NCBI GenBank assembly: GCA_947462535.1
Contig: CANHPN010000020.1
Location: 1 to 36,146 of the forward strand
Source: Akkermansiaceae bacterium
GTDB lineage: Bacteria > Verrucomicrobiota > Verrucomicrobiia > Verrucomicrobiales > Akkermansiaceae
Direction: 5' to 3'
Length of the DNA stretch: 36,146 nt
A program made the translations under genes and the position numbers. Shown here one piece after another: positions 16,196 to 35,383 of the stretch. Every line of letters starts with the position of its first letter. The first letter of the stretch is position 1. The notes beneath the pieces were generated by a model. That model was not told the DNA's origin and did not search any database. It saw nothing but the letters and a program-made list of their open reading frames with translations.

Positions 16196-16930
16196 TCAGG
16201 GTTTCACCTGGTTCCAGTCGATCTGACGCTCGGCAAAATCTGCTAGAAACTTTTGCAGCTTGGCATCCGCCTCCGCCTCGGTGACCTCGTTTTCGATCCA
16301 TGGCACCTTGCCATACCACATCGAAACCGAGGTGTAGGCCCAGCGCTGGTCCATGCCGCGCACCAGGCGGTCCTTCATGTCGATGAAGGTCCGGGCCAGG
16401 TGGTCGTTGGTCACTTGATGGTGCCCGACGAAAAAGTAATACGTCAGGCAGTTGAATTTCGCATACTCCTCGCGCTCCTCGTTAGACCTCACACGTTGCG
16501 ACTGGACTGAAACCAGCCGCTTGGTCGCGAACTGGCGGCCGTTCGGAAGCTTGAGCATCCGGTCGCCGGAGGAAGTGATGTTATGCCCCTGAGCCGGCAT
16601 GCAGCGCTCCGGCCGGTGGATCGAGTTGTTGATGTCCGCGCCCGAGAGGACGATCGAAAGATCGACTCGGTCGGGGACGAGATAACCGTCCGCGTTGACC
16701 TCGCCGGGCCGGGCAGCCAGGCAGATCGCCTTGGAGAACTGGGTGTCGCTTTTGAGCGTGCCGATCTCCGCCTCGCTGGGCGACTGGCCTTCCAGCGACC
16801 ATCTTCCCGAAGTGGCGGGCAACTCCATCCTCACTGCGGACTGGGCGACCGCGCCCACCTTGGGCAGGAAATAGATCGCGCTGAACGTGCCTCCCAGAAA
16901 CAAGGGCAGAAGCCAGGATTTGGTTTTCAT
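16196..16930 (-). CDS. Exosortase-associated EpsI-family protein (DUF3485)
   Basis: Periplasmic, membrane-anchored partner of the exosortase, 244 residues from the ATG at 16930. It has an N-terminal signal/anchor (MKTKSWLLPLFLGGTFSAIYF). The EpsI/DUF3485 core includes VDLSIVLSGADINNSIHRPE followed directly by RCMPAQGHNI (105-118). This is the characteristic His-x-Pro-x-x-Cys block of the family. YYFFVGHHQVTNDH and the closing helical region follow. The family often appears fused to the C-terminus of exosortase or right behind it; here it is a separate gene. Its ATG overlaps the exosortase stop (ATGA at 16927-16930), a sign of translational coupling. The molecular role of EpsI is not established. 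Confidence 0.88.
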   Translation of the reverse strand: MKTKSWLLPLFLGGTFSAIYFLPKVGAVAQSAVRMELPATSGRWSLEGQSPSEAEIGTLKSDTQFSKAICLAARPGEVNADGYLVPDRVDLSIVLSGADINNSIHRPERCMPAQGHNITSSGDRMLKLPNGRQFATKRLVSVQSQRVRSNEEREEYAKFNCLTYYFFVGHHQVTNDHLARTFIDMKDRLVRGMDQRWAYTSVSMWYGKVPWIENEVTEAEADAKLQKFLADFAERQIDWNQVKP

Positions 16931-17928
16931 GATTCCGGTAGAAAAGGTTTGGATTCGTCCGTGCGGGTGACGACCACCCGGCGGAGTCGGCGCTGGTTGT
17001 GCTTTCTCCATGGCAGGCCGCCTTCGAGCAGCGAGTGGATGACCAGCAAAAGCATCAGCGAGAACGGATAAAACAGCAGCAGCCCCGACCAGTCATGCCA
17101 GGTAGTGCGCGCCCACTCCGCATTGCCATACTCCGCGATCACGAAGATGGAGGTCACCCGCAGCGCGTTGCCGAGAATCGCCAGCGGAAAGGCCGACAGG
17201 AACAGCAGCACCTTTTTCCAGAGCGCCATCTTCGCGATGTAGGCCCACGCCGCCGAGATCATCAGCAAGGCCATCAGCGAGCGGATGCCGCTGCATCCCG
17301 CCGCGATATCCAACGGCTCCCAGTCCCCCTTGAGCGGCAGCACCTTGGTGCCCTCCACATAGGTTTCCACCCCGAACAAGCCCGAGCCGTGATGGGCCAT
17401 CGAAGTGGCGAGCAACTGGAGGTGCGTGGTCGCCTGTTGGAAACTCGGCAACGGGACGGCCAGCCAGAAAAAGAACAGCGGGAAGGTCAGCAGCTTCGCC
17501 ACACGCCAGCCCCATAAATACCAGGCACCGCCCCAGACAATGAACGGCAGCCCGGCCATCGCGATCCGCGGCTGGAGCGTCCGGTAAGCGGCCACGTAAA
17601 ACAACACCCCCACCAACACCGCCAGCAGCCCCCAGACGTTCTCCTTGCCGGCTGCAGCCTTGAGATCCTTGAGTCGATAGAAAATCAAGCCCGCGATCAC
17701 GAAGGGGAACAACAGTCCGTGCTCGTAGTCGGTCTCGCCGTTCCACGCGCTGTAAATCCAGCGGAAAGCCGACTGCCCGCGGCCGGAATCGTAGCGCGTT
17801 TCAAACCCGTAAAACCAGACCACCAGCGCCACCGACAACAATACCGAGGCCCACAAAACCAGTTTCCCCGCGCCTTGAGAGCAGGATTTCGGTGGGGCGG
17901 CGATCGCCTCAGGTGAGCTGGATGACAT
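16927..17928 (-). CDS. Exosortase (PEP-CTERM sorting transpeptidase, EpsH-like)
   Basis: Polytopic inner-membrane cysteine transpeptidase-like enzyme that processes the C-terminal sorting tail of PEP-CTERM proteins. The protein is 333 residues from the ATG at 17928. The catalytic residues of the family are present: Cys212 in IAAGCSGIRSL, Arg257 in LGNALRVTSIFVIAEYG and His278 in TTWHDWSG. The early YEHGLLFPFVIAG (68-80) and the FPLFFFWLAVPLPSF segment are also family-specific. About eight membrane helices are visible. A promoter-like TTGACA/AATACT pair ends about 33 bp upstream of this ATG, so longer starts further upstream (up to 18039) are unlikely. EpsI is coupled downstream, and a PEP-CTERM protease gene occurs at 33003 in the same window. 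Confidence 0.94.
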   Translation of the reverse strand: MSSSSPEAIAAPPKSCSQGAGKLVLWASVLLSVALVVWFYGFETRYDSGRGQSAFRWIYSAWNGETDYEHGLLFPFVIAGLIFYRLKDLKAAAGKENVWGLLAVLVGVLFYVAAYRTLQPRIAMAGLPFIVWGGAWYLWGWRVAKLLTFPLFFFWLAVPLPSFQQATTHLQLLATSMAHHGSGLFGVETYVEGTKVLPLKGDWEPLDIAAGCSGIRSLMALLMISAAWAYIAKMALWKKVLLFLSAFPLAILGNALRVTSIFVIAEYGNAEWARTTWHDWSGLLLFYPFSLMLLLVIHSLLEGGLPWRKHNQRRLRRVVVTRTDESKPFLPES

Positions 17929-17961
17929 CAGGGAAGAGTGGGTTGGACGATTTCCGAGCAA

Positions 17962-17990
17962 AGTATTGCCGACGCCCTCTCCACTGTCAA
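17962..17990 (-). promoter_or_regulatory. Sigma-70-like promoter for exosortase-epsI
   Basis: On the minus strand TTGACA (17990-17985) is followed by a 17-base spacer and AATACT (17967-17962), four of six matches to the -10 consensus with the ideal spacing. Transcription would begin near 17955 and give a leader of about 25-30 bases before the ATG at 17928. It lies in the 100 bp divergent gap to prs. Confidence 0.55.
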
Positions 17991-18028
17991 CAATCCGCCC
18001 GCCTGCCCGCTTATCGCTCATTTTTCTC

Positions 18029-18955
18029 ATGAAAATCATCAGTGGAACCGCTCACCGAGCCCTTGCCGAACGTATCGCCGACAGTCTCGGCCAACCCCTC
18101 GCCGACGTCCACGTCTCCGCCTTTCCCGACGGCGAGACCGAGGTGAAAATCAACGAGAACGTCCGCGGCGCGGATGTGTTCATCGTCCAACCAAGCTGCC
18201 CGCCGACCAACCACAACATCATGGAGCTGCTGATCATGGTGGACGCCGCCCGCCGCGCCAGCGCCGAGCGAATCACCGCAGTGATGCCATTCTTCGGCTA
18301 CGCCCGCCAGGATCGGAAAGACCAACCGCGCGTGCCGATCACCGCCAAACTGGTCGCCAACCTGCTGACCTCCGCCGGCGTCAACCGGGTTCTAACCATG
18401 GACCTCCACGCGCCGCAGATCCAAGGATTTTTCGATATCCCCGTGGATCATCTCTACGCGAAATCCGTGCTCATCGGCTACCTCCGCGAGCGCCACCCGG
18501 ACACCTCTAACCTCACCGTCGTCTCGCCCGACGTCGGCGGAGTGAAAATGGCCCGCGCCTACGCCGACGCCCTCGGTGCCGAGCTCGCCATCGTCGCCAA
18601 ACACCGGGTCAGCGCCACCCGCGTCGAAGCCATGAACGTCATCGGCGAGGTCAAAGGCCGCGACGTCCTGCTGGTGGACGACATGACCGAAACCGCCGGC
18701 ACCCTCACCGCCGCTGCGGAAATCCTCCACAAAAACGGCGCCAAGCGCATCTACGCCGGAGTCTCCCATGCGATTCTCGCCGAGCTCGGCCACCAGCGCA
18801 TCCGCGATTCCAAGATCGAGGAAGTCATCACCACCGATTCCGTGCCGCAAGCCGCCGGGCCGAAAGTCCAGGTCGTGAGCATCGCCCCGATGCTCGCCGA
18901 GGCAATCCGGCGGATCCACGGCGGCCAGTCGATCACCTCGCTGTTCGCCGTCTGA
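18029..18955 (+). CDS. prs: Ribose-phosphate pyrophosphokinase (PRPP synthetase)
   Basis: Cytoplasmic enzyme that transfers pyrophosphate from ATP to ribose 5-phosphate to make PRPP for nucleotide, histidine and NAD synthesis. From the ATG at 18029 it has 308 residues, normal for class I Prs. Family motifs in order: SAFPDGETEVKINENVRG (30-47), MPFFGYARQDRKD (86-98), TMDLHAPQIQGFFDIPVDHL (123-142), VVSPDVGGVKMARAYAD (164-180) and the PRPP loop VLLVDDMTETAGTL (213-226). An in-frame upstream ATG at 17966 would add an uncharacteristic extension and sits inside the exosortase promoter, so it is rejected. It is divergent from the exosortase and upstream of rplY. Confidence 0.97.
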   Translation: MKIISGTAHRALAERIADSLGQPLADVHVSAFPDGETEVKINENVRGADVFIVQPSCPPTNHNIMELLIMVDAARRASAERITAVMPFFGYARQDRKDQPRVPITAKLVANLLTSAGVNRVLTMDLHAPQIQGFFDIPVDHLYAKSVLIGYLRERHPDTSNLTVVSPDVGGVKMARAYADALGAELAIVAKHRVSATRVEAMNVIGEVKGRDVLLVDDMTETAGTLTAAAEILHKNGAKRIYAGVSHAILAELGHQRIRDSKIEEVITTDSVPQAAGPKVQVVSIAPMLAEAIRRIHGGQSITSLFAV

Positions 18956-29088: not shown

Positions 29089-29664
29089 TCAAGACCCCTT
29101 CCCCGCCAGCAGTAAAAACGGCGCGGGCCGCCGCGTCCCCACGGCACCATACCTCGCGATCCTCCAGCCGTCGGAGGCTTGCCTGGTCAGCCAGGTTTCC
29201 ACCGCCACCGCCTCGGCGGCCCCCGCCGGGTGGCCGGGATAACAGATCACTGACAGCGCGCCGCCGCGCTTGATCAAGCGGACCGCCGCCTCCAAGGCCA
29301 CCAGCGTCTCGGCGGATTGAGTCGTTAGCCGGTGGTCGTCTCCCGGCAGGTAGCCAAGATTGAACATGACCACCGCCACCGATTCCCCGGCGGCGTGGGC
29401 TGCCATTTTCCCGTGCGACTCATGGAAAAAATCTACGCACCCCTTCTCGCCCACCCTTGCCCTGGCAGACGCCAGCGCCGCTTCCTGCACGTCGAAGGCG
29501 AGCACCTTTCCCGTCGGACCGACGCATTCCGCTAGAAAAACCGTGTCGTGGCCGTTGCCCGCCGTCGCGTCGATCACCAGATCCCCCGGCTGGATCAAAG
29601 GCCTCAAGATTTCCTGCGCCAAAGCCGTTGGGCGCGGGGGAAACAGCGGATCAGCGGGATTCAT
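29089..29664 (-). CDS. MnmM/YtqB-like tRNA methyltransferase
   Basis: Class I SAM methyltransferase of 191 residues (ATG 29664; GTG 29667 also possible). The MnmM/YtqB family (formerly called rRNA methylase, PF06962) is recognised by VIDATAGNGHDTVFLAECVG (31-50), VLAFDVQEAALASARARV (55-72), VMFNLGYLPGDDHRLTTQ (100-117) and VICYPGHPAGAAEAVAVE (140-157). Known members methylate the 5-aminomethyl group of wobble uridine in tRNA, giving mnm5(s2)U. The start overlaps the end of an MnmC2-like oxidoreductase by about 14 bp, which supports this role. Function is inferred from family and context. Confidence 0.8.
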   Translation of the reverse strand: MNPADPLFPPRPTALAQEILRPLIQPGDLVIDATAGNGHDTVFLAECVGPTGKVLAFDVQEAALASARARVGEKGCVDFFHESHGKMAAHAAGESVAVVMFNLGYLPGDDHRLTTQSAETLVALEAAVRLIKRGGALSVICYPGHPAGAAEAVAVETWLTRQASDGWRIARYGAVGTRRPAPFLLLAGKGS

Positions 29665-30658
29665 CACGGCGAGTTTGTTCGTAAAACACCCGGAAGTCTA
29701 TTTCCGGCTCGGGCTCGACGCCGTCCAACAACCAACGGGCGAGCCGCCCCGCCATGCCCGGCGCGTAGAGCGAGCCTTTCGAGCCAAGCGCGTTGAACAT
29801 CCAGCCGCCGCCGTCGAGCGGCCCGATCAACGGCTCGCTGCGCCGCAAAATCGGCCGCACTCCGGCTTCGTGGGTGATCACCTCGAAAACCCCGCCGCCC
29901 AGCCGACTCGCGATTTCCTCCACCCGCGCCCGTCCTTTTTCAGTCGGCAGCTCATCGAGCTCATTCCACTCGTAAGTCGAGCCCGCCTTGAAAACGCCCC
30001 CACCCTGCGGCACCAGCCAGCCGCCCGCGCCGATCCGGATGCGGGTCTCATCCCAGCCCGCCGCACGCAGCGTTAGAATCTCGCCCTTCGCGCAGCGGTG
30101 CGGACCGTAGCGACCCGCCATCAAGCCCGCCGCGCCCTCGCACCAGATCGTGTCCTCGCCAGCATCCGCTAGAGAAACCTCACCGCTGCGATGACAACCG
30201 AGCTCTTCAAAAAACTCCCGCGAGCCGTCCATAAAAGCCCGCGTGTCCAGCCGTCCGCCGCCACTGACCTCCACCGCGCCGACCCATCCGTCCGGCGCGG
30301 GGACCTCCCCCGCGACCCACGGCACGACGTCCGGCGAATCCAGTTTCGAGACGATTTTCCGCCATTCCTTGTCCGATCCAGCCAGCCGCAACACCGGAAA
30401 CGGACACCAGACCTGCCGCCCGATCCGCTCCTCCACGGCCGCGTAAAACTCCAGCGCCTCCGGCAAAAAACCGGCGATCCGCCAGCTCGGTTCGAAATTT
30501 TTCCCGGTGATCGGATTCACCATCCCCGCCGCGACCCGCGAGCTGCCCCCCGCGCCACGATCCACTAACATGAACTCCGCCCCACGCCGCCAAAGCGCCC
30601 ACGCGAGACAAGTCCCCGCGAGTCCCTGTCCGGCGATGGTCCATGGCGGCGCGCTCAC
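29651..30658 (-). CDS. FAD-dependent oxidoreductase, MnmC2-like (DAO family)
   Basis: Flavoenzyme of 335 residues. N-terminal FAD site IAGQGLAGTCLAWALWRRGA (8-27, G-x-G-x-x-G), then VDRGAGGSSRVAAGMVNPIT (32-51), the R-x-x-G-x-x-N-P-x-x-G block shared with the FAD domain of MnmC. The late region includes GVRPILRRSEPLIGPLDGG and MFNALGSKGSLYAPGMAGRL, the second flavin-binding part. MnmC2 removes carboxymethyl from cmnm5U in tRNA to give nm5U. Here it is a free-standing protein lacking the methyltransferase half of bifunctional MnmC. It overlaps the MnmM-like gene downstream and the small helical gene upstream (GTGA at 30655-30658; GTG start). The role in tRNA modification is inference; a general amine oxidase role is not excluded. 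Confidence 0.7.
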   Translation of the reverse strand: MSAPPWTIAGQGLAGTCLAWALWRRGAEFMLVDRGAGGSSRVAAGMVNPITGKNFEPSWRIAGFLPEALEFYAAVEERIGRQVWCPFPVLRLAGSDKEWRKIVSKLDSPDVVPWVAGEVPAPDGWVGAVEVSGGGRLDTRAFMDGSREFFEELGCHRSGEVSLADAGEDTIWCEGAAGLMAGRYGPHRCAKGEILTLRAAGWDETRIRIGAGGWLVPQGGGVFKAGSTYEWNELDELPTEKGRARVEEIASRLGGGVFEVITHEAGVRPILRRSEPLIGPLDGGGWMFNALGSKGSLYAPGMAGRLARWLLDGVEPEPEIDFRVFYEQTRRDESR

Positions 30659-30975
30659 TTCGCCATCAACTCCTCGTTCGGATCTACCCAGGCGGCGTCA
30701 TGGCCCTTGGCGTAATTGAACAAATGCTTGTGCAGATAAGGCACGAAGTTAGGCCGCTGCTCCTTCGGCAGCTTCGCCAGAACCGCCTCGTTGACGGCCC
30801 GCATCAGCTTCTGCATCAGGTGCAATGTGAGCTGGCGGCCCTTGCGCGCCTTTTGCACCTGCTTGTGGTTCAGTTGTTCTTCGGAAACTTCCACCAATTC
30901 ATGATTGGTCAAATTCCAGCGGTCCATCAGGCCATCGAGGGGCTGCGGTCCGTGATCGCGTGTCAGTTCATCCAT
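30655..30975 (-). CDS. Small helical protein, possible HTH, unknown function
   Basis: 106 residues from the ATG at 30975; an ATG at 30993 and a GTG at 31014 are also possible. It is strongly basic and alpha-helical, with NLTNHELVEVSEEQLNHKQV followed by QKARKGRQLTLHLMQKLMRA. That arrangement recalls a Cro/C1-type helix-turn-helix (first helix with an A/E-x-L-V, a turn, then a K/R-rich recognition helix), but I do not recognise a named family. The stop overlaps the GTG start of the MnmC2-like gene, so it is translated with the tRNA-modification pair. A DNA- or RNA-binding role is inference. Confidence 0.65.
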   Translation of the reverse strand: MDELTRDHGPQPLDGLMDRWNLTNHELVEVSEEQLNHKQVQKARKGRQLTLHLMQKLMRAVNEAVLAKLPKEQRPNFVPYLHKHLFNYAKGHDAAWVDPNEELMAK

Positions 30976-31109
30976 GCCCCGGATGTAGCGCATGCGCCGC
31001 CCGCGGCTAAGCACAAAATTTTCTCATTCCCCGGTCACCGTTTCCGCCTGCCACGGCGCGTTCAGAAAATTGTGTTCCGGCTGTCTCCGTCGCATTCGAA
31101 GCCTCCGTC

Positions 31110-32957: not shown

Positions 32958-32986
32958 TTGATTCATCTCCGTTGAAATCATATTTT
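32958..32986 (+). promoter_or_regulatory. Possible promoter of the PEP-CTERM protease gene
   Basis: TTGATT (32958-32963), a 17-base spacer and TATTTT (32981-32986) lie immediately upstream of the GAGGG ribosome binding sequence and the ATG at 33003. The leader would be only about ten bases long. Confidence 0.35.
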
Positions 32987-33002
32987 GCGAGGGTCATCCC
33001 CG

Positions 33003-34010
33003 ATGTCCATGAAAGCCCTTTTATCTATCATCGCCAGCCTGACGGTTCCCGCGTCCGCCGTGATCGTGGCCGGAGCCAGTGGCGGCGGAAACACCGCGAA
33101 CAACACCACGGCGGCGCAGTTTCAGAGCGAGTATGGGATTTCCTTCCCCGCCTATGACAATGTGATCCGCTACTCGGACGCATCCGGGATTTATCTGGGC
33201 TATGACACGGCCACCAAGGACATCTGGGTGCTAACGGCCCGCCACGTCAGCAGCAGCCTCACCCAGGGAGCCACCGTCACCATCGACGGACTGGTTTACA
33301 ACCGCCAACCGAACGGGGCGGATGGCTTCGGCCTGCTGCCGGGCGGCGACCTGCGCCTGGTCCGCTACAATCGGGGAGATCTCGCGGTGCCGACGCTCCC
33401 GGCGGTGAATATTTCCACGTCTGTCCCTACTGCGGGAACCGGACTTTTGATGGTCGGCTACGGCCAAAACCGGACTCAGAACGCGACGCTCAACGGCTTC
33501 ACGTCGGACGCGGTTTCCGTCACCGTGGGAACCGGTTACAACTGGTCCGGCACGACGATCAAACGCTGGGGCACCAACCAGATCGAAACGGAATTTCTCG
33601 ACGGTTTGGAATCGACCATACCGGTTGCCGGCACCACCGGAACCTTCTCGCTCGGCCCTTACAACACCATCGGCTACATGACCGATTTCGACCAACCAGG
33701 CACCGGACAATGGTTGAACAGCAACGAAGCACAGGGCTCGCTCGGCGATTCCGGTGGCAGCGCGTTCTATTATTCCGGCGGCCGGTGGTATCTCTCCGGC
33801 ATCTTCACGGCGGTGCTTGGATTCAGCGGACAAGCTGGAAACACCGCCGCATTTGGCAATCTGAGCCTGCTCACGGATGTCGCGAGTTACAGCGGTGCCG
33901 TCAACACGGCACTGGCCGACGTCACTTTGATCCCCGAGCCGGCCTCCCCCGCACTGGTGTTTCTTGCTGGCCTGGCAATTTTCTCCAGGTGCCGCCGTTC
34001 ACGCGTTTGA
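33003..34010 (+). CDS. Secreted PEP-CTERM trypsin-like serine protease
   Basis: Secreted protein of 335 residues. The ATG at 33003 is preceded by GAGGG about ten bases upstream. The N-terminal signal peptide is MSMKALLSIIASLTVPASA. Trypsin-like features are WVLTARHVSS (His, about 74-83), GDLRLVRYNRGD (candidate Asp, about 113-124) and QGSLGDSGGSAFYYSGGRWY (GDSGG, nucleophile Ser). The C-terminus is a PEP-CTERM sorting tail: IPEPASPALVFLAGLAIFSR followed by CRRSRV, with P-E-P, a hydrophobic helix and a basic end. It is therefore a candidate substrate of the exosortase at 16927-17928. The target of the protease is unknown. It is divergent from the ABC transporter. Confidence 0.9.
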   Translation: MSMKALLSIIASLTVPASAVIVAGASGGGNTANNTTAAQFQSEYGISFPAYDNVIRYSDASGIYLGYDTATKDIWVLTARHVSSSLTQGATVTIDGLVYNRQPNGADGFGLLPGGDLRLVRYNRGDLAVPTLPAVNISTSVPTAGTGLLMVGYGQNRTQNATLNGFTSDAVSVTVGTGYNWSGTTIKRWGTNQIETEFLDGLESTIPVAGTTGTFSLGPYNTIGYMTDFDQPGTGQWLNSNEAQGSLGDSGGSAFYYSGGRWYLSGIFTAVLGFSGQAGNTAAFGNLSLLTDVASYSGAVNTALADVTLIPEPASPALVFLAGLAIFSRCRRSRV

Positions 34011-34048: not shown

Positions 34049-35383
34049 ATGACCGGTCGGGAAATTCGAGAAGCGCTGATTCACGCGGGGGTGATGCCGA
34101 GCAAGCAGCTCGGGCAGAATTTCCTCATCGACCCGAACATGGCGCGCTGGATCGTCTCGCAACTGGAAATCACGGCGGACGACGCGGTGGTGGAAGTCGG
34201 CCCCGGCACCGGATCGCTCAGCGAGCATCTGGTCGGAAAAGTCCGGAAATTGATCCTCATCGAGTTCGACGCCCGCCTCGCGGAAGCCCTGAAACACCGC
34301 TTCCGCGACGACCAGAGCGTGGAAGTCCACCACGCCGACGGCGTGAAATTCGACGGCCGCCAGCTCTTCAAACACCGGCCGCTGAAATTCCTCGGCAACC
34401 TCCCCTACTCCTGCGGCGGCGCGATTCTCAAAAACCTGCTCAGCCGCCCGCACCCCTTTGAGCGCGCGGTGATCATGCTGCAAAAGGAAGTCATCGACCG
34501 CCTCGCCGCCGCACCCGGCACGAAGGATTACGGCATTCTCTCACTGCGGACCCAGGCGAACTGGGAGGTAAAATCGCTGCGCACCGTTCCGCCCGAGGCG
34601 TTTTACCCGCAGCCGAAGATCGATTCCAGCGTCGCCGTGCTCACGCCACGGACCAGCGGGCTGCCGACCTTCGACTACCGCCTGTTCGACGAACTCATCC
34701 GCCGCGGCTTCGCCCAACGCCGCAAGCAGCTCAAAAAGCAACTCCCGGAAGGCCCGCCGTGGGAGGACATCACCACCGGCCTCGGCGTCACCGCGACCGT
34801 CCGCGGCGAGGAACTCACGCTCGCGCAATGGGTCGATCTCACCCGCGCCTACGATCCGCATCCGCTCAAGGACGTGCCGCAGAAATCCGGGGAAATCTTC
34901 GACGTGGTGGATGCCGACGACCAAGTGACCGGCACCGCCACCCGCGCGGAGATCCACGCGCAAAAGCTCACCCACCGCGCCGTCCACGTCTTCGTTTTCA
35001 ACAAACGCGGCGACCTGCTCCTCCAAAAACGCTCCCTCCTCAAAGACATGTGCCCCGGCCTCTGGGACTCCAGCGTTTCCGGCCACCTCGACTCCGGCGA
35101 GTCCTACGAAACCGCCGCCGTTAGGGAGCTCGAGGAGGAAATGGGCATCGCCGCCGAGACCGCGCCCGAGGAAATCGCCCGCATCACGCCCGGCGTCGAA
35201 ACCGGCTGGGAACACGTCCGCCTCTATCGCATCCGCCACGACGGAGCCCTCCGTTTCCCCTCCGCCGAAGTGGATGCGGCAATGTGGTTTCCGCCAGCAG
35301 AAATCACCGCCTGGATCTCCGCCCACCCGGCGGATTTCGCGCCGGGCTTCCTGGAATGTTGGAAAAAATTCTCCGAACTATGA
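34049..35383 (+). CDS. rsmA: Fusion of 16S rRNA dimethyltransferase RsmA and NUDIX hydrolase
   Basis: 444 residues with two complete domains. RsmA (KsgA), residues 1 to about 268, makes m6,2A in helix 45 of 16S rRNA: SKQLGQNFLIDPNMARWIV (18-36), VVEVGPGTGSLSEHL (47-61), KFLGNLPYSCGGAILKNLL (113-131) with the NLPY motif, and a C-terminal helical domain ending near RAYDPHPLKD. A NUDIX hydrolase (about 281-444) follows: EIFDVVDADDQVTGTATRAE, HRAVHVFVFNKRGDLLLQKR, and a complete NUDIX box at 345-367 (GHLDSGESYETAAVRELEEE, then MGI). The second domain resembles YfcD-type/IPP-isomerase-like NUDIX proteins. Both parts look functional and there is no stop between them, so this is a real fusion rather than two genes. 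A new enzyme pairing is inference. Confidence 0.93.
   Translation: MTGREIREALIHAGVMPSKQLGQNFLIDPNMARWIVSQLEITADDAVVEVGPGTGSLSEHLVGKVRKLILIEFDARLAEALKHRFRDDQSVEVHHADGVKFDGRQLFKHRPLKFLGNLPYSCGGAILKNLLSRPHPFERAVIMLQKEVIDRLAAAPGTKDYGILSLRTQANWEVKSLRTVPPEAFYPQPKIDSSVAVLTPRTSGLPTFDYRLFDELIRRGFAQRRKQLKKQLPEGPPWEDITTGLGVTATVRGEELTLAQWVDLTRAYDPHPLKDVPQKSGEIFDVVDADDQVTGTATRAEIHAQKLTHRAVHVFVFNKRGDLLLQKRSLLKDMCPGLWDSSVSGHLDSGESYETAAVRELEEEMGIAAETAPEEIARITPGVETGWEHVRLYRIRHDGALRFPSAEVDAAMWFPPAEITAWISAHPADFAPGFLECWKKFSEL

Follow-up and report, generated by a model that had tools for sequence, protein, structure and literature searches.

Which enzyme converts 5-carboxymethylaminomethyluridine (cmnm5U) to 5-aminomethyluridine (nm5U) at position 34 of tRNA in bacteria that use MnmM for the subsequent methylation to 5-methylaminomethyluridine (mnm5U)? 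According to the paper on MnmM, it was unknown which MnmC(o)-like enzyme such organisms have (PMC9976899). The question is raised by a locus in a stretch of 36,146 nucleotides from an Akkermansiaceae bacterium (Verrucomicrobiota; GenBank assembly GCA_947462535.1, contig CANHPN010000020.1), hereafter the window, in which a gene for a flavin adenine dinucleotide (FAD)-dependent type of oxidoreductase, here called the oxidase, overlaps a methyltransferase gene of the YtqB/MnmM family. A preliminary description of this DNA had read the pair as a two-gene mnm5U pathway, in which an 'MnmC2-like' oxidoreductase is kept and the methyltransferase half of MnmC is replaced by a different fold. As described there, both open reading frames (ORFs) lie on the minus strand and overlap by exactly 14 bp when the ATG start of mnmM is used. 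The two-gene pathway with MnmM as methyltransferase proved well supported at the sequence level, by co-occurrence, adjacency and fusion of the two genes and by the presence of MnmEG, with no MnmL or MnmC(m) detected in the genome. The replacement of one half of MnmC, on the other hand, was not supported.

By its sequence, the methyltransferase is MnmM. It scored 178.9 bits against NF053511 (MnmM), above the curated cut-off of 135, and 124.4 bits against Pfam PF06962, which bears out the family assignment made earlier, and its solved homologues were 4pon (phmmer 1e-37) and B. subtilis YtqB, 8h0s (6.5e-36). In B. subtilis MnmM, mutation at each of K11, D34, N101, Y104, K110, Y141 and H144 resulted in very low activity (PMC9976899), and we compared these seven U34/U33-contacting and phosphate-contacting positions. 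The window protein keeps five of them (D34, N101, Y104, Y141 and H144) but has Q in place of K11 and H in place of K110, and its partner, unlike that of the B. subtilis enzyme, is an FAD oxidase. Among 44 MnmM sequences of the phylum (window included), D34, N101 and Y104 are kept in 43 and Y141 and H144 in 42, while position 110 is K in 31, R in six, H in six and E in one, and K11 is kept in two. Since changes at K11 and K110 are common across these sequences, they appear to be a trait of the group and not of the window gene alone.

The two genes are linked by their distribution in the phylum, which we sampled with 288 genomes of 151 genera (oxidase profile at E<=1e-10, scored on the best seven first-look candidates per genome; MnmM over cut-off). 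The oxidase was found in 63 genomes and MnmM in 46, and all 46 MnmM genomes carry the oxidase, compared to 17 of the 242 genomes without MnmM (Fisher p 1.8e-39, kinship not corrected for). At the level of genera, the oxidase occurs in 30 of the 151, namely in all 21 MnmM genera and in 9 of the 130 others (Fisher p 5e-19, kinship again not corrected for). Within a sister genus with small genomes (g2), MnmM was present in 13 of 14 oxidase-positive and in none of eight oxidase-negative genomes (p = 2.8e-5); the two genes are not adjacent there, and both were undetected together in 8 of the 22 genomes. The preliminary description had proposed to search for the gene pair across the phylum, and we found the oxidase and mnmM directly adjacent, in the same order and on the same strand, in 14 of the 46 MnmM genomes (window and fusion included), which belong to 11 genera and five families. 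In one further genome (G280) they are 2.7 kb apart, and in a sample of the order with about 1.5 kb of flanking DNA the oxidase-mnmM order was repeated at 10 of 29 other loci. Moreover, one of these 14 genomes, G261, which consists of a single contig, encodes both in one ORF of 553 amino acids (aa). The oxidase lies at residues 13-352 (Pfam DAO 14-336) and MnmM at residues 375-523 (371-552 in the match to the MnmM model), the MnmM part scoring 188.7 bits and thus over the cut-off.

The window oxidase matches Pfam DAO (PF01266) with 77.6 bits (1.7e-21), and 51 of the 57 genomes sampled in the order carry a single homologue each, which in G009 shows as two matches side by side; no plasmid homologue was found. 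The motif that had been described for the FAD protein is present as SSRVAAGMVNPITG at residues 39-52. It had been taken for an MnmC-type motif, but VAAG-x-x-NP turned out to be a signature of the oxidase family, and five MnmC(o) rows of the alignment carry S-x-N-x-[QRW]-G-x-x-x-P at this place. The name 'MnmC2-like' was likewise rejected, as the protein is below the MnmC cut-off and the nomenclature is inverted: the FAD half of MnmC is MnmC1 or MnmC(o), and the methyltransferase half is MnmC2 or MnmC(m) (PMC3648344).

Several features are nevertheless common to the oxidase and MnmC(o), among them the presence of MnmEG, and the oxidase is proposed to carry out the same reaction. Arg268 is present in 57/57 phylum rows, 11/11 Bacteroidota rows and 5/5 MnmC(o) rows, and the G-S-K/R-G loop of the oxidase aligns with G616-S-R-G619 of MnmC, whereas the single glycine oxidase compared has Y-R-N-G. 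The MnmC1 residues conserved to more than 98% include G271, G273, G287, G518, R567, G578 and G619 (PMC3648344), and all seven have counterparts in the oxidase (G10, G12, G26, G226, R268, G279 and G295; R653 lies outside the comparison). The shared Arg and G-S-K/R-G loop, together with the common DAO/glycine-oxidase fold (Z 30.4 to MnmC), would suit a true MnmC(o) orthologue, that is, one half of a split MnmC whose methyltransferase was exchanged for MnmM. However, the oxidase reached only 35.1 of the 174.2 bits required by the MnmC(o) model (TIGR03197, MnmC_Cterm), although all 30 members of its alignment match this model at E<=0.001. In an unrooted tree of 82 rows, 57 phylum and 11 Bacteroidota rows form an oxidase clade of 68 rows (support 100/98), and MnmC(o) of E. 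coli and of four genomes of family f38 form a clade of their own (100/98). The arrangement differs as well: the oxidase is free-standing or, once, N-terminal to MnmM, and MnmC(o) is C-terminal to MnmC(m). Orthology with MnmC(o) is therefore very unlikely in our judgement, while a common tRNA-modifying ancestor of the oxidase and MnmC(o) remains compatible with the tree, as this is unrooted. Because the oxidase fails the MnmC model and lies in a separate clade, both halves of the pair, and not only the methyltransferase, differ from MnmC.

The structure model of the oxidase (predicted local distance difference test score 92.4, from a 30-row alignment) was closest among solved structures to CmiS2 (6j38/6j39; Z 32.6, root mean square deviation 2.5, 317 residues aligned), the glycine oxidase ThiO (1ng3; Z 32.4, 2.6, 318 aligned) and IdaA (6pxs; Z 30.4, 3.0, 320 aligned), and E. 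coli MnmC followed with Z 30.4 (3.0, 324 aligned); matches within one Z unit count as tied. The GxGxxG motif, the Pfam DAO match and a Z of 32 to 1ng3 place the protein in the DAO/glycine-oxidase fold superfamily. CmiS2, IdaA and ThiO differ from it in having small-molecule substrates, and identity in the structural alignments is 16-22%. By their PDB titles, IdaA and ThiO act on the CH2 of glycine or of an N-carboxymethyl amine, as does CmiS2 (PMC11284099).

These matches raise the question whether the FAD protein is simply a glycine oxidase (ThiO) for thiamine synthesis that happens to lie near mnmM. Its fold matches B. subtilis glycine oxidase at Z 32, ThiO (TIGR02352) is its best NCBIfam match, and no protein in any of the 57 genomes of the order is over the ThiO cut-off, so that ThiO could be missing there. 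The match amounts to 51.1 bits, though, far under the cut-off of 250.8, and on this ground we rejected the assignment. In addition, B. cereus glycine oxidase and eight paralogues form another separate clade in the same unrooted tree (100/98), and the flavin-side loop has K/R as in MnmC(o), where the sole glycine oxidase compared has N. A thiamine enzyme would also leave the 46/46 co-occurrence with MnmM, the adjacency and the fusion to coincidence, which makes it a very unlikely explanation. The oxidase and its homologues thus seem to be a family of their own within the glycine-oxidase/MnmC(o) superfamily, apparently uncharacterised so far.

The other enzymes of the pathway were compared in the window genome (2.82 Mb, 95% complete) and in the phylum. 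The window genome carries MnmG (774.5 bits) and MnmE (358.2 bits), both over cut-off, a check that the preliminary description had suggested. In the same genome, no match to TIGR01212, which is MnmL/YtqA by its NCBIfam name, reached the cut-off of 180 bits, the best one scoring 28.2, and no PF05430 match indicative of MnmC(m) was found at E<=1e-5. MnmL is the partner of MnmM in Bacillus. Like the oxidase, it is proposed for the step from cmnm5U to nm5U and partners an nm5U methyltransferase, in this phylum by fusion to MnmC(m); MnmL is, however, a radical S-adenosylmethionine (SAM) enzyme and the oxidase a flavin enzyme, with unrelated fold and chemistry.

ALTERNATIVES to oxidase-MnmM compared in the phylum were the MnmL-MnmC(m) fusion and the MnmC-type fusion. 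TIGR01212 was detected in 71 and PF05430 in 79 of the 288 genomes, and in 56 genomes the two matches share contig and open-frame length, apparently representing MnmL-MnmC(m) fusion ORFs; the sole member of the 56 that was scanned (L108:73-1977, plus strand) is such a fusion. The oxidase was detected in none of these 56 genomes. MnmC-type ORFs, recognised by PF05430 together with the DAO profile, were found in the four f38 genomes, where strong PF05430 matches lie in frames of 635-653 aa and all four ORFs match the DAO profile weakly. The one f38 ORF scanned (L104) is MnmC, and the oxidase (E<=1e-10) was found in none of the four genomes. Overall, TIGR01212 and the oxidase occurred together in 9 of the 288 genomes (p = 0.03). 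Four of the MnmM genomes (G089, G170, G214 and G266) have a TIGR01212 protein, and we considered these proteins as MnmL backups. This was rejected, since they share a clade with E. coli YhcC (100/98), apart from the MnmC(m)-fused proteins, in a tree that was made without B. subtilis YtqA and in which the MnmL side was assigned by the fusion to MnmC(m).

A different PF05430 arrangement was met on the way. ORFs of about 700 aa combine a queuine tRNA-ribosyltransferase (TGT) with a PF05430 methyltransferase resembling MnmC(m), as seen in 4/4 scanned proteins (Table 1), and so join two enzymes of anticodon position 34. PF05430 was found in frames of 677-867 aa in 11 of the 288 genomes, and the weak PF05430 match of the MnmM genome G146, in a frame of 689 aa, is probably also a TGT fusion.

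A number of observations weigh against the oxidase being the partner of MnmM in mnm5U formation. It fails the MnmC(o) model TIGR03197, and the window MnmM has lost K11 (to Q) and K110 (to H), positions at which substitution by E nearly abolished the activity of the B. subtilis enzyme (PMC9976899). The co-occurrence counts are not phylogeny-corrected, and absences of the oxidase may include misses, as the best seven first-look candidates were scored per genome; that the oxidase was found in all 46 MnmM genomes under the same scoring suggests that such misses are few. Strict pairing does not extend to all genomes, as 17 of the 63 oxidase genomes have no MnmM. Ten of these have PF05430, six belonging to family f26, with a free-standing protein, and four to family f9 (G130, G133, G202 and G297), with frames of 691-725 aa; three of the four f9 frames were scanned and all three are TGT fusions. 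In the other seven, neither MnmM nor PF05430 was found; G096 among them has a weak oxidase match of 48 bits, G188 has a truncated one, and four of the seven are in family f9. Moreover, in five f26 genomes the oxidase and a PF05430 protein are accompanied by a TIGR01212 protein that the tree places on the MnmL side, so that the step would be doubled and the oxidase redundant there. Finally, in 80 Flavobacteriia loci, the best 80 of 468 from a genome scan, neither MnmM nor MnmC(m) nor MnmL was found in the flanks of the oxidase homologue.

The seven genomes in which no nm5U methyltransferase was found, and the Flavobacteriia context, which shows no tRNA gene of the mnm5U pathway, could also point to an enzyme that oxidises another small N-substituted glycine, such as iminodiacetate, sarcosine or N-carboxymethyl amino acids; the link to MnmM would then stem from common regulation or from a substrate supplied indirectly. 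The nearest folds, which act on small glycine derivatives, agree with such an activity. Hard to reconcile with it are that the oxidase is paired with, and once fused to, a tRNA methyltransferase, that both genes are jointly absent within one genus and that most genomes of a large order (51/57) have exactly one copy, and we regard it as highly improbable.

We infer instead, with good confidence, that tRNA is the substrate, that the oxidase converts cmnm5U34 to nm5U34 and that MnmM acts after it, making mnm5U34. MnmE-MnmG would install cmnm5 on U34 using glycine, the reaction reported for MnmEG (PMC9976899). The FAD oxidase would bind the modified anticodon loop and oxidise the glycine-derived CH2 beside the secondary amine, hydrolysis of the imine would give nm5U34 and glyoxylate, and MnmM would methylate nm5U34 to mnm5U34. 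For the chemistry there are two precedents: CmiS2 dehydrogenates an N-carboxymethyl amine, and hydrolysis of the resulting imine gives glyoxylate and the free amine (PMC11284099); MnmC1, which depends on FAD, cleaves the carboxymethyl group from cmnm5U34 (PMC3648344). As a separate family of the glycine-oxidase/MnmC(o) superfamily, the oxidase would be a third solution for the step from cmnm5 to nm5, in addition to the FAD domain MnmC(o) and the radical-SAM enzyme MnmL.

Oxidase matches extend to Bacteroidota, where they were found in 161 of 335 genomes (E<=1e-20, best six first-look candidates scored per genome), although the lower part of these matches (down to about 120 bits among those listed) may include paralogues. 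Of 20 oxidase-bearing Flavobacteriia, two had TIGR01212 over cut-off, as did 14 of the 335 Bacteroidota, and TIGR01212 occurred together with the oxidase in 2 of the 335 (p = 0.012). All six Bacteroidota TIGR01212 rows in the tree (four of the 14 and both Flavobacteriia ones) are on the YhcC side, and the pattern of oxidase and TIGR01212 was therefore not used as evidence on MnmL there. It has been reported that mnmC(m) is present in Bacteroidetes and that Bacteroides lacks mnmC(o) and keeps an orphan mnmC(m) (PMC9976899). Together with the spread of the oxidase and the YhcC-like TIGR01212 rows, this makes the oxidase a candidate for the step in Bacteroidota too, on weaker evidence than in the window's phylum. 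We tentatively propose that this family supplies the missing enzyme of MnmC(o) type both in MnmM-carrying members of the phylum and in many Bacteroidota, which we hold to be a real possibility and somewhat short of probable. As a separate observation, the oxidase homologue in four Flavobacteriia loci printed gene by gene (L227, L244, L256 and L261) lies directly downstream of the same gene set. We take these upstream genes to be gldK-gldL-gldM-gldN of gliding and the type IX secretion system.

The coordinates of the features are given in Table 1. A 119-aa ORF adjoins the oxidase gene on its upstream side, and given the 4-bp and 14-bp overlaps we read this ORF, the oxidase gene and mnmM as one predicted operon, of which the 119-aa ORF is the probable first gene. 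It had no Pfam match (E<=0.001) and no NCBIfam match (E<=0.1), and homologues of it adjoin the oxidase in 12 genomes, the window's included. Elsewhere in the window, a single 444-aa ORF (34049-35383, plus strand) combines a NUDIX domain with a KsgA-type rRNA adenine dimethylase, an exosortase EpsH gene has a DUF3485 neighbour (16196-18039, minus strand), and the protein encoded at 32985-34010 (plus strand) ends, by our reading of the sequence, in a PEP-CTERM-like tail.

Table 1. Coordinates of the oxidase-mnmM locus in the window, and of TGT-PF05430 fusion ORFs at other loci of the phylum
Feature	Position	Strand	Basis or remark
FAD oxidoreductase (oxidase) gene	29651..30658	-	ORF, 335 aa, GTG start
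mnmM (ytqB family) methyltransferase gene	29089..29664	-	191 aa with ATG start; a GTG start at 29667 would give 192 aa
14-bp overlap, oxidase stop / mnmM ATG start	29651..29664	-	direct sequence reading
119-aa ORF from GTG, upstream of oxidase	30655..31014	-	4-bp GTGA overlap with oxidase start
FAD-binding GxGxxG = GQGLAG, residues 10-15	30614..30631	-	invariant columns
Family motif VAAGMVNP, residues 42-49	30512..30535	-	alignment
Invariant Arg268	29855..29857	-	aligns with E. coli MnmC Arg567 and glycine oxidase Arg
ALGSKG, residues 290-295	29774..29791	-	G-S-K/R-G as in MnmC(o), unlike glycine oxidase row
TGT-PF05430 fusion ORF	L146:1816-3930	-	
TGT-PF05430 fusion ORF	L147:454-2526	+	
TGT-PF05430 fusion ORF	L148:1844-4018	-	
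TGT-PF05430 fusion ORF	L153:300-2498	+	

The pathway, the fold and MnmM itself were already known, and the pairing and fusion of an FAD oxidase with MnmM, as read from the sequences, would be the new part. Since the paper on MnmM, MnmL has reportedly been proposed for Gram-positives. It appears in PMC12548931 as a table entry with a reference. In the open-access literature searched by title and start of abstract, which did not cover Jaroch et al. 2024, we found no description of a flavin enzyme outside MnmC that is paired or fused with MnmM. With the oxidase-mnmM pair there is a concrete gene that could close this gap in the window's phylum, and a candidate in Bacteroidota as well. If the proposal holds in both, the oxidase family would be among the most widespread enzymes converting cmnm5U to nm5U, as an oxygen-using counterpart of the radical-SAM enzyme MnmL. 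ThiO and ThiH show the same parallel between an oxygen-using and a radical-SAM enzyme. The findings suggest that the last two steps of a conserved tRNA modification, whose mnm5U-type modified base serves codon reading, were put together more than once from exchangeable components: an FAD oxidase or a radical-SAM enzyme, combined and in some cases fused with one of two unrelated methyltransferases.

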